From Hypomyces perniciosus (Eukaryota > Ascomycota > Sordariomycetes > Hypocreales > Hypocreaceae), in contig SPDT01000007.1 of NCBI GenBank assembly GCA_008477525.1, positions 3,844,001 through 3,908,000 of the forward strand: a DNA stretch of 64,000 bases, read 5' to 3'. Positions 59,281 through 64,000 of this stretch are shown here, one piece after another (the first letter of the stretch is position 1; each line of letters opens with the position of its first letter). The notes below the pieces were generated by a model. That model saw only the letters and a program-made list of their open reading frames with translations, was not told the DNA's origin and did no database searches. The position numbers and the translations under genes were made by a program.

Positions 59281-60526
59281 GCACTAAAATTGGTTACCGG
59301 TTTTTTTATCTTTCTTTTTTATATGAAGCAATCGTGTACCAAAAATAGGTTTTTGGCCTTCTCGACGGAGTACTTCGTACTTCGTAGTTTTATCAGACTT
59401 ATTGTCGAGACATTGCTCTTCTTGGTTGTCCATGTACCGTTGTAGCCGAGATGGTTGACATAAGTATGATGTTATTCCTGCGAGAGTCAGCATGTGCTTT
59501 GTATGAAGAAGTTGAAATGTTCGGTTAAAATTCCACTAGGATAAATTGAAACATAAATGAAATCTCTATATACAATTTTGATGTTTTGTTATCTTCTCTA
59601 TCGATAGAAAGTACTGTCTGATCTGACCTCTGGCGTCTGGTGACTACCCGGGAGGCCGATAATATGGAACAGCATATTGCGGATTGCGGAGTAGTAGTAC
59701 GAGCATTACGGCGACAACACATGGGGGCTCGCGAGGGAGGAGACGTTGGATTTAGGGCGGTAGGCATACAAATTGCAGATGGCCTTTGATTGGATGCTTT
59801 GATTACATCCATATCGACTAAACTCCGTCGGTGCATTCGGTTAGAGGGACGCTTGTTGATTGGATTTCCCGATCCCCGAATGCACGAAGTTTTCTCCCTC
59901 ACGCAGTGGACGCTTCCAGAACACAAGTATGTGTACGAAGTACTTCGTACATCAATCAATACAGTATTATCTATGAAATACGTAATAAGACATTCCATGC
60001 TAGGCACTGATGCTCTACTTGGGAAGAAATTATAGCGATTTTTCTATTGCTTCGTAGTGACTACCTCCTCAGTATACTCCGTGCTCCGTACTTCGTACTT
60101 CGTATCTACTACGGAGCAGCCCGAACCGGATCTCCGATGGATTTGTCGGTCCTTAGCAAAGCTTTTGCTAAGCTGCACAGAAACCAGAAACCCCACTCAG
60201 TGCCCCGCTACCCGTATGCGGGTCCCTCTTCTCAAACTGTTTTGTCAGGCTCAAGTAATCCTCCCGCGCGTCTATCACTAACACCTTGAAAATACCTACG
60301 GGTATTGCTGAGAAATGTTGAGTACTGCTATTATGCGTCCCTTGCGTCGCAGTATGTACGGTGTAGGATCTAGAGCTGAGACAGATTGTCTTTTTCATGA
60401 TTACAAACACAGCCAAGCCACCCCGGGCCCGGACATGGGCATTACAAGCCATTGGCTAGCTGAAGCTTGGAACTCTGATGTTGTAAAGGGATGATGCCAT
60501 ACTTCGTACTTTGTACTGGCCCCAGC
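59281..60526. other. Intergenic rich in TACTTCGTA / ACGGAGTA motifs
   Basis: Contains clustered motif variants near 59364-59388, 59935-59952, 60072-60118 and 60499-60517. No coding ORF is supported. The last part is the quinone reductase promoter. Confidence 0.5.
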
Positions 60527-60534: not shown

Positions 60535-60686
60535 CTTCTCTTGGCCCTCTCAAGTTTGAACTTTTGACTACTTCGCATCATCACTCAGCTTCCTCTCAAC
60601 GAACAAACACTTGCTTCCACATCCCCCCTTGACAGCAACCCTCAGTCCCCAAGACTCAGACACAAACACAAACACAAACAATCACA

Positions 60687-61487
60687 ATGGCTCCCAAGAT
60701 TGCTATCGTCTACGTAGGTCGACCCCTCTTCAGCCGCTGAGCTTTACATGCTCAACCTCAAAACTCAACCGAGTCTTCCGGCATTACATCAATGCATCCC
60801 TACTGACTCAGCGCCCATCTAGTACTCCATGTACGGCCACATCCGGCAGCTGGCCGAGGCCGAGAAGAAGGGCATCGAGAAGGCCGGCGGCAAGGCCGAC
60901 ATCTACCAGCTCCCCGAGACCCTCTCCGACGACGTCCTTTCCAAGATGCACGCTCCTCCCAAGGACAGCGACATCCCCGTCTTGGAGGACCCAACCATTC
61001 TCGAGAAGTACGATGGCTTCCTGTTCGGCATCCCCACGCGATACGGCAACTTCCCCGCCCAGTGGAAGGTACGCAACTAATCCCCCTCTCTACCCCCTCT
61101 CTCTCTCCCTTCGACCTATGCAGGCAGAGCATCGGTGTTAACATACTATCCTTGCAGACTTTCTGGGACAAGACCGGCGGCATCTGGGGCAAGGGTGGCT
61201 ACTGGGGCAAGAAGGCCGGTGTCTTCATCTCCACTGGCACCCTTGGCGGTGGCCAGGAGTCGACTGCCATTGCTGCCATGTCCACCCTCGCCCACCACGG
61301 CATCTCCTTCGTTCCCCTGGGCTACGCCAAGACCTTCCCCCAGTTGTCCAACCTGTCCGAGATCCACGGTGGCAGCCCCTGGGGTGCTGGCACCTTCGCT
61401 GCTGGTGATGGCTCTCGCCAGCCTTCCGCTCTCGAGCTCGAGATCGCCACTATCCAGGGCGAGGAGTTCTACAAGAGCTTCAACTGA
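60687..61487 (+). CDS. Flavodoxin-like NAD(P)H:quinone reductase (Pst2/Ycp4/Alt a 7 family), join(60687..60713,60823..61068,61158..61487), 200 aa
   Basis: WrbA-type FMN enzyme that reduces quinones by two electrons and protects membranes from oxidative stress. Exon 1 encodes only MAPKIAIVY; exon 2 starts [17 protein letters not shown] (FMN phosphate loop), then [15 protein letters not shown]; exon 3 has the flavin-binding [12 protein letters not shown] and [32 protein letters not shown] segments, highly conserved. Introns: GTAGGT, GTACGC donors, good acceptors. The stop is TGA at 61485-61487, followed by CTA, then 53 more sense codons in frame (see next entry). Codon use is strongly C-biased at third positions, which suggests high expression. 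Confidence 0.93.
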
Positions 61488-61652
61488 CTACATGGCAGTA
61501 CGCCTAAGAAGGAGGAGCCAGCCAAGCCCGCGGCGACTAACGGAGCTCAGCGTAATGTTGGATCAGTGGCGACCAGCGACAGGGAGCAGGTGAAGGAGGG
61601 GAGAGTAAAGGAGGGCCCCTGTGGACTTCCAGTCAAATGCACCATTATGTGA
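61488..61652 (+). other. In-frame readthrough extension with CaaX box after the quinone reductase stop
   Basis: Immediately after the TGA the same frame has 54 sense codons and then TGA at 61650-61652. The sequence begins LHGSTPKKEEPAKPAATNGA and ends GPCGLPVKCTIM. CTIM is a CaaX motif (farnesylation type), with a second Cys seven residues before it and basic residues around, like the lipid anchors of Ras proteins. TGA CTA is the known leaky stop context that gives readthrough in fungi and animals. A spliced route is unlikely: the only in-frame donor/acceptor pair would define a 33-bp intron. So the extension is either a readthrough isoform or a remnant of a formerly longer protein. Confidence 0.6.
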
Positions 61653-61777
61653 AAGCGTCAGATATCCCATTGCAAACTGTCCATCTTACTCTAATGCATA
61701 GATAAAAAAACAATTTGAAGCAAATTCCTATTAGCAAGAGAGACTTCATCTGCTGATGCCGAGTCCTCAGCACCTCA

Positions 61778-62572
61778 TTACTTTGAACCTTCTTCCTTCT
61801 TCCGTAACGCACAAATCTCAGCCATGCAGTCCATCGACCGCACATCGTGACTGATCGGCTTGACATTCCTCCCGATCATCAAATCATCGAGGACTTGGTA
61901 TATGTACTTCATCGCCGTGTGCTTTGCTGGGTTCTTTGTTGACGGGTCTCCACCAAACGTGTCCCAAAAGCTGGTTTGCAAATCTTCAATCACGTATAGA
62001 CCACCAGGTTTGACGATTCGCCAGAGATACTCGAGAGAGGTGATTTGCTGGTTCATCGTGTGACCACCATCATCAATGATGACGTCAAATAACCCATCTG
62101 TTGTCGACTCTGTGGAAAACTGCGTCAAAAAGACAGCATCTGCCTGGTCTCCGATGAAGACATGGGCGTTTGCAGTCTTGTCTTGGTACTTTTTGGCGCA
62201 TTGGGCATCGTATTCGATAAAGTACAAGTCGACCTGTGGGAGATACTCCAACCACGTGTAGTAGGATGCTCCGGGACCATAATCCTGTCTTGTCAGGACG
62301 GATCAATGATCAATGATCAAGAGGACGCTTACCATATTACAACCGAGCCCAATTTCTAGTGCCTTTAGGGGTTTGTCCCGAATGCCCGAGAGATACTTGT
62401 CGTACATGAACTGGTACTTGTGGGTGGTGACTTTGTCGGTGCCGTATTTGAGGGCGACCTGCTCAAAAACTCGGGGGCGAGTGGGAGCTGTCTGTGGCTT
62501 CATTGTTCGATCCGCTTCTAGTGATGAGCGCCATGTACATCCATCATCAGCGTGGTTGGAGGCGGAGAACAT
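61778..62572 (-). CDS. Class I SAM-dependent methyltransferase, complement(join(61778..62284,62333..62572)), 248 aa; 5' end uncertain
   Basis: Motifs of the Rossmann methyltransferase fold: YGTDKVTTHKYQFMYDKYL, PLKALEIGLG (SAM loop), YFIEYDAQC (acidic end of beta-2), FDVIIDDGGHTMNQQ (motif like that of MycE/cephalosporin-hydroxylase-like enzymes), then GGLYVIEDLQTSFWDTFGG. The intron (donor GTAAGC, CTGAC branch, ACAG) is phase 0. The start at ATG 62572 is the simplest choice. However, an ATG at 62699 opens a frame with a membrane anchor (LNLVFSLSAILFICAAIHQW) and a GTATGT...CACTAG intron that would join but for one base. So a type II membrane form, with an indel or error, is possible. Substrate unknown. 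Confidence 0.7.
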
Positions 62573-62699
62573 ACAAGTGAGAGGTCAGCTTTTGCTGCAA
62601 AACCTGGGTGGTGATGTTCCCCCATTGATGGATAGCAGCACAGATGAACAGGATTGCTGACAAGGAGAAAACCAAATTCAAGGTCCGGTTGGTGGCCAT

Positions 62700-63131: not shown

Positions 63132-64000
63132 TCATTGCTCCCTACCCCCTCCTTTCCTCTCAAAGAGATCTGTCTCAGAGCCAAAGAATGGGTTGGGCTG
63201 GAACGAGCTGTGGATCTGCGGGTTTGACTGCAGTTCTCCATCATAGAGCCGCTGCCGGCTGTCCTGAACAGGTGGTGCCACCTTGATATCGCCTCTGTAT
63301 ATCTCCACAACTGATATGAGTGGCATAATCAGCAGAAGTATTGACAGCAACTGTCCAAAGCTCCACCCCTTCTCTCCCTCGTCGCTGAGCTTCACTGAAG
63401 GATTCCCGAATGCTTGGGAGAGCAAAATGATGCGTACCCCGGCTCCAATAGCAATGGCCATCATGAGAACCAACCCGACTATCTGCACTGCTTTATAGAA
63501 CTTCTGGTCACGGCTATGCAAGTACCACGTCGCAAGTGCGAAAATAACACAATTGCCCGCGATTGCGGCAATGGTCCCGACGTACGACAGCCCGGCATTG
63601 GACGGAGCCCCCTCTCCATTAACTGTCCAGACGCAAGCGATGGGCAGAGTTTGATTCTCCAGCCCCTTGGATACCGCTTGAAGCACAAAGATGCCAGAAA
63701 CGGACGACAATGCCAAGTTGACGAACATGAGGAGTTGCCGCATCCATCTGAGCACCCAGTCACGACGGTAGTCATGAACCAAAGCCAGAAGCGTAGCGTT
63801 ATGCGTTGCCATGGACAAGAGGGACAGCATCCAGATCAAGAAGAAATGATATGGCACAAGCGAATTCATCTTGGCCAGCCCAACACCTGCGAGTCTCTCT
63901 TTAGCAAAAATGTCGTCGGGTCTTTCCAGAATCATGCAACTCACTCTGGATGCCAATCCCCTGCATGATCTGGGAGTCACTGTATCCATTGAGCAGCTTG
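63132..64000 (-). CDS. Multipass membrane protein, 3' part only, complement(join(63132..63886,63945..>64000))
   Basis: The window ends inside this gene. The upstream exon reads KLLNGYSDSQIMQGIGIQ, then a 58-bp intron (donor GTGAGT, acceptor CGCAG, phase 1) and VGLAKMNSLVPYHFFLIWML. About five membrane segments follow: FFLIWMLSLLSMATHNATL, the LLMFVNLALSSVSGIFVL region, AAIAGNCVIFALATWYL, VGLVLMMAIAIGAGVRIIL and LLSILLLIMPLISVVEIY. The C-terminus is hydrophilic. The DSQIMQGIGIQ motif and layout are those of a family of uncharacterised fungal integral membrane proteins. I do not assign a function. Confidence 0.75.
   Translation of the reverse strand, partial: SCSMDTVTPRSCRGLASRVSCMILERPDDIFAKERLAGVGLAKMNSLVPYHFFLIWMLSLLSMATHNATLLALVHDYRRDWVLRWMRQLLMFVNLALSSVSGIFVLQAVSKGLENQTLPIACVWTVNGEGAPSNAGLSYVGTIAAIAGNCVIFALATWYLHSRDQKFYKAVQIVGLVLMMAIAIGAGVRIILLSQAFGNPSVKLSDEGEKGWSFGQLLSILLLIMPLISVVEIYRGDIKVAPPVQDSRQRLYDGELQSNPQIHSSFQPNPFFGSETDLFERKGGGREQ

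Follow-up and report, generated by a model that had tools for sequence, protein, structure and literature searches.

Targeting signals added by stop-codon readthrough have been described in both fungi and animals (PMC4973966, PMC9549241; these and the other papers are cited for the passages on which we draw). In Ustilago maydis, a CUA placed behind UGA is sufficient for readthrough, and the screen for genes with TGA CT in this fungus targeted PTS1 motifs (PMC4207609). The fungal isoforms that gain a targeting signal by readthrough in the passages cited carry peroxisome signals (PMC4973966), and among fungi a mosaic of splicing and readthrough serves the same peroxisome signal (PMC4973966, PMC9549241). 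The readthrough extension of yeast PDE2 leads to degradation of PDE2 (PMC4973966), and in Drosophila a farnesylation signal has been predicted in the readthrough extension of Syx17 (PMC3840789). As regards quinone reductases of the flavodoxin-like family, Candida Ycp4 is longer by about 90 residues, with a CAAX box at the end, and occurs beside family members such as Pst2; all four tagged family proteins were found at the plasma membrane, and these enzymes protect against lipid peroxidation (PMC4556627).

The locus described here lies in a stretch of 64,000 nucleotides of Hypomyces perniciosus DNA (contig SPDT01000007.1, positions 3,844,001 to 3,908,000), referred to below as the window. It encodes a flavodoxin-like quinone reductase whose TGA stop is followed by CTA and by an open frame with a CaaX box at its end. 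The locus resembles Tpi1, Art1 and Rpe1 of Ustilago, which undergo peroxisomal readthrough, in the UGA CU(A) context, in an extension bearing a targeting signal and, as we propose, in yielding a dual-located metabolic enzyme; it differs from them in that the signal is a CaaX lipid anchor rather than PTS1 and in that the extension has a homologous tail in annotated proteins of relatives. Candida Ycp4 belongs to the same family and likewise has a C-terminal extension ending in CAAX, but it is the product of a separate gene whose main frame includes the tail, whereas the window has one gene with a stop before the tail. In Pezizomycotina, the quinone reductases of the Alt a 7 type that are annotated as long forms are homologous enzymes with the tail GPCGLPxKCxxx; they differ from the window gene in reaching this tail without a stop, probably by splicing. 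Syx17 also has its prenylation signal in a readthrough extension, although it is an animal protein, its signal is predicted only, and the cited passages mention no homologous tail in its relatives. An earlier note on this DNA had regarded a readthrough-generated prenylation signal as a new idea, which is not wholly the case in view of the farnesylation predicted for the Syx17 extension (PMC3840789). In searches of the open-licence PMC literature, no paper turned up that describes a fungal CaaX made by readthrough or two alternative ends of this quinone reductase. The tail itself is already present in relatives' annotated proteins.

The gene is composed of the following parts:

60687..60713, + strand: exon 1, encoding MAPKIAIVY; spliced translation gives the full WrbA/Pst2 protein
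60714..60822, + strand: intron 1, phase 0, with donor GTAGGT, branch-like CTGAC and acceptor CTAG
60823..61068, + strand: exon 2, from the spliced translation
61069..61157, + strand: intron 2, phase 0, with donor GTACGC and acceptor GCAG
61158..61484, + strand: coding part of exon 3 up to the first stop; the short isoform ends GEEFYKSFN
61485..61487, + strand: first stop, TGA, proposed to be leaky; the CTA next to it (61488-61490) makes up the UGA CUA context
61488..61649, + strand: in-frame extension of 54 codons, homologous to the C-terminal tail of relatives
61614..61649, + strand: conserved end GPCGLPVKCTIM, with a second Cys (61620-61622) and the CaaX box CTIM (61638-61649)
61650..61652, + strand: second stop, TGA

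Joining exons 60687-60713, 60823-61068 and 61158-61487 yields a complete WrbA/Pst2-type quinone reductase of 200 residues, and removal of intron 1 restores the conserved IVYYSMYGH. Residues 4-194 match TIGR01755 (WrbA-type NAD(P)H:quinone oxidoreductase) with 199.4 bits, where the curated cut-off is 132.5, and the structure of yeast Pst2 (5mp4) matches residues 3-198 of the 200-residue core. The identification as a flavodoxin-like quinone reductase, made from the letters alone, is thus borne out and narrowed to the Pst2/Ycp4 type; judged by the extent of these matches, the core enzyme is complete without the tail. The genome (44.0 Mb, 23 contigs) contains a single locus for the quinone reductase at E<=10, and a separate anchored paralog was rejected, none being found at that threshold.

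As to the surroundings, short reiterated words like CCGTACTTCGTACTTCGTA were seen by eye upstream of the gene (60080-60120 and 60500-60520). On the minus strand, a convergent neighbour spans 61778-62699 in three reading frames (61778-62251, 62303-62572 and 62547-62699), with its stop about 125 bases from that of the extension; frame 61778-62251 has a methyltransferase match just below cut-off (PF13578, 25.4 vs 26.3 bits). Further along the same strand, a frame of 285 residues (63132-63989) shows several hydrophobic-looking stretches by eye and no Pfam match.

Upon re-translation the TGA CTA, the 54 open codons, the CaaX end and the second Cys all proved to have been placed, framed and counted correctly. 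The extension (61488-61649) translates as LHGSTPKKEEPAKPAATNGAQRNVGSVATSDREQVKEGRVKEGPCGLPVKCTIM and ends in KEGPCGLPVKCTIM; a C-terminal Cys-a-a-X box, CTIM, occurs in the extended form only, and the second Cys (TGT 61620-61622) stands six residues before the CaaX Cys. Two marks of the readthrough class are present, namely UGA followed by CU(A), the context described in the cited passages of PMC4207609, and an in-frame extension with a conserved signal. Peptides specific to the extended form would be NVGSVATSDR, EEPAKPAATNGAQR and the stop-spanning SFN[W/R/C/S]LHGSTPK. With respect to coding character, the extension has a hexamer score of 0.31 per codon. This is a typical value, which ranks at the 44th percentile among 506 coding chunks and exceeds those of both other forward frames; of 74 post-stop segments, a set that includes the quinone reductase gene itself, 3 reach it. 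Openness of the frame alone is weak evidence for the extension: at least 54 codons stay open after the stop at 14 of the 74 ORF ends (quinone reductase gene included), some of which are stops inside introns, one of them demonstrated. RNA structure over 101 nt from the stop was not unusual (z=+1.75), and Rfam gave no matches over 60600-61800.

The reality of the tail was assessed through its homology. Whole-length protein searches returned 6538 and 6086 matches at E<=0.001, 120 being listed for each, and the 187 distinct proteins among the matches listed form our set of relatives, picked by similarity to the query, tail included. In length they comprise 106 proteins of 198-210 residues, 44 that end in CGLPxKCxxx and 37 others (32 of 388-466 residues and five odd-length records of 212-288). 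Across the 33 sequences aligned (the window and 32 long relatives), the tail end never varies in its G, CGLP, K and C, so that the CaaX Cys and the K before it are conserved throughout, and the X position is Q, L or M in all 44 long relatives, which were picked by their CGLPxKCxxx end. A profile of the 44 tails, from which the window was excluded, retrieved the frame starting at 61488 with E=3.8e-8 when run against 264 kb translated in six frames (11,743 ORFs); the second-best match had E=1.1, and none of 2000 shuffled extensions reached the score of the extension. On this evidence a chance open frame was rejected. Judged by its homology, the extension is a genuine protein tail, conserved and furnished with both the CaaX box and the further Cys, in agreement with the earlier proposal of a meaningful C-terminal tail. 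The extended protein runs 60 residues beyond the last conserved Phe, compared to 46-71 in the long relatives (38 of 44 measurable), so that nothing is missing without splicing. A protein search with the tail only gave one candidate and none at E<=1, which reflects a limit of word-based search, the homology having come from the whole-length search. As to the DNA of fungal relatives, none turned up in the collections covered: prokaryote genomes contained no tail pattern and eight bacterial WrbA loci at 45-49% identity; 274 plasmid records were all below 60% identity (five of the 274 listed); and the viral contigs, with 9 and 110 pattern stretches, held no relative's gene.

Within the set of relatives, short and long forms stand side by side. 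The annotated short forms (106 of the 187 listed) stop 6-12 residues past the same conserved Phe. The cores of P0137 (Podospora, AKAFGA-stop) and P0064 (metagenome, AKAFGGIANG continuing to the tail) are identical at 190 of 190 residues, those of the Colletotrichum records P0157 (short) and P0055 (long) are 99.5% identical, and both pairs diverge at the short form's stop or no more than two residues from it. In the core tree, the long form of Neonectria magnoliae is nested inside short forms of Neonectria, Thelonectria and Cylindrodendrum (98/92). Since short and long models thus exist for practically the same gene, the making of a short and an anchored form by one gene seems to be an arrangement that these fungi share, and the gene models suggest that the long form of the relatives is probably spliced. 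Six of the 44 long models (P0031, P0062, P0124, P0127, P0130 and P0135) skip the FY helix end and join the IQG region straight to the tail. Fusarium models (P0091, P0107, P0106, P0124 and P0127) join the core to the same tail at differing junctions, which in the gene models read VAN|QAK, VAN|SQAK, T|AAPEV, QGD|SQAK and QGD|QAK.

The short forms bear on whether the TGA is genuine. A sequencing or assembly error, or a variant of this strain, might be suspected of a TGA that is known from one genome; we hold this very improbable, as the majority of the listed relatives stop close to the window's stop and the CTA context would be a coincidence. It is also conceivable that the TGA is a recent nonsense change, the tail a vanishing relic and the short enzyme, which is complete by itself, the only product. 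A weakly supported tree would agree with this, grouping the window with annotated short forms of Trichoderma, Cordyceps, Beauveria and Escovopsis (fork 16/89), which stop 6-8 residues past the same Phe compared to 5 in the window. Against a relic, however, all invariant residues of the tail, its frame and its length are intact, and TGA CTA occurs only once among the 73 other ORF ends, a random nonsense change having CTA behind it in about 1/64 of cases. We regard such a relic as distinctly unlikely.

A stop that lies where relatives appear to splice could also be skipped by splicing, with an intron over the TGA removed in some transcripts and retained in those for the short form. The features concerned are:

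61466-61498, + strand: candidate 33-nt intron with donor GTTCTA, branch CTGAC and acceptor GGCAG
61484..61498, + strand: CTGACTACATGGCAG, a putative branch-site-like CTGAC holding the TGA plus an acceptor-like AG, phase 2

The most compact version of such splicing is the 33-nt intron, which would join IQGE to D-TPKKEEP in frame, similar to the jump made by the six long models above. The near-identical cores of P0137/P0064 and P0157/P0055 likewise speak for splicing, as does the position of the TGA inside a sequence that resembles a branch site plus acceptor, the distance between the two being 10, where 76 intron candidates have a median of 12. TGA CTA occurs in one other case among the 74 ORF ends. 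There it belongs to the branch site of an intron, which means that splicing signals can produce the motif incidentally. In-frame pairs that skip the TGA are at hand as well: over 30-330 nt there are 62 GT-AG pairs, of which the shortest is 33 nt and the next 111 nt (all others being at least that long), and 181 GC-AG pairs from 45 nt upwards. Their donors, however, are poor. None of the 14 GTs in exon 3 fits GTRNGY, so a consensus donor upstream of the stop is missing; GTTCTA agrees with the donor consensus at little beyond its GT; GTGATG and GTGCTG reach the 61497 acceptor out of frame only; and GCTTCA, GCTCGA, GCCACT and GCGAGG, with which the short GC-AG pairs begin, are not GCAAGT-like, GCGAGG at 61459 coming nearest. 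Moreover, the unspliced length already agrees with that of the relatives. A length of 33 nt is below what is usual for fungal introns, and together with the poor donor this makes the 33-nt splice unlikely. Splicing around the TGA in general we consider unlikely too, although it is the chief rival of readthrough.

The same resemblance to splicing signals may instead tell of the origin of the stop. CTGACTACATGGCAG resembles a fungal branch site plus acceptor, which suggests that it could be an intron remnant turned leaky stop; the base after its acceptor-like AG falls on the third position of a codon (phase 2). The other TGA CTA noted above is one real case of such a branch site. It lies in the plain intron at L030:3941-4012 (donor GTAAGA) of what is presumably a ubiquitin protease gene, spells TGA CTA when the upstream frame is read on, and is followed by a frame that stays open. 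This case is also a caution for readthrough scans that rely on TGA CTA alone. We hypothesize that relatives would obtain the anchored form by removing an intron whose retention supplies the stop of the short form; in the lineage of the window, this old intron would have been deprived of its 5' part. Its branch site, CTGAC with TA after it, would have remained in the exon and in frame, where it reads UGA CUA, and what had been a switch by splicing would have become a leaky stop for a prenylated enzyme. Such an exchange of one means of making isoforms for another is a tentative idea, possible but doubtful. Some long relatives keep the residue of the short-form end (VGA|VPAQ in P0017 and FGA|AETP in P0059, compared to GA-stop), and this would fit a phase-2 intron with the donor NN|GTAAGT or NN|GTGAGT, which gives a stop when retained. 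The closest pairs (P0137 with GA-stop vs P0064 with GG; P0157 with VG-stop vs P0055 with DG) misfit a phase-2 junction after the last residue. The terminal residue of the short form can be encoded by an NNG codon in 102 of the 106 short relatives, but as a test of the splice-donor idea this is only suggestive, because the sequences compared are related to one another and roughly three quarters of all residues could be so encoded in any case. The absence of TA after CTGAC in all 33 CTGAC branch candidates of the sample does not favour the remnant idea.

Editing is another way in which a stop may be lost. Stop codons are edited in perithecia of filamentous ascomycetes (PMC11156358), and A-to-I change of the mRNA during sexual development could turn UGA into UGG. 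In the cited passages, however, all 323 of 323 stop-loss events of F. graminearum are UAG to UGG, U stands at -1 in 85.7% of edited sites (the later review gives more than 70%), and editing of GAC triplets is rare (PMC4817773, PMC11156358). The window has UGA in place of UAG and GAC as the triplet, without the U at -1, and we consider editing here extremely improbable.

Cumulatively, readthrough appears to fit the anatomy of the locus best among these mechanisms. We propose, and on balance hold it probable by a little, that one gene gives through one mRNA two products, a soluble enzyme and an enzyme anchored by readthrough. Most ribosomes would stop at the UGA (61485) and release the complete soluble enzyme of 200 residues, and a minority would pass UGA CUA by means of a near-cognate tRNA, adding a tail of 55 residues that ends in CTIM. 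The Cys of CTIM would then be farnesylated, farnesyl being preferred where the X of CaaX is Met, and the Cys six residues upstream could be palmitoylated. The lipidated tail may place part of the enzyme at a membrane, as in yeast Ycp4, which is lipid-modified at its C-terminal CaaX. The occurrence and level of readthrough, the lipidation and the membrane location are thus what we infer from the arrangement of the locus. The genome does contain PPTA repeats, the kind found in the alpha subunits of prenyltransferases. The standing of UGA CUA as a readthrough context, on which the earlier note had relied, agrees with the sufficiency of CUA after UGA in Ustilago, as given in the cited passages of PMC4207609. 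Against readthrough, the three genes checked here for a peroxisome tag of this origin (GAPDH, PGK and ribulose-5-phosphate epimerase) end in TAA and have none, and the RNA behind the quinone reductase stop has no notable structure; the pattern of TGACTA with a short PTS1-like end had three matches.

If true, a readthrough-made lipid anchor, on a tail whose homology is established, would widen the known uses of leaky stops, and a single gene would achieve what takes two genes of the yeast type, Pst2 without and Ycp4 with the CAAX tail. If the intron-remnant route is true as well, branch-site remnants would be a ready source of fungal readthrough stops. Both the UGA CUA stops and the mosaic in which fungi use either splicing or readthrough, described in the passages of PMC4973966 cited above, would then have an origin that can be tested.
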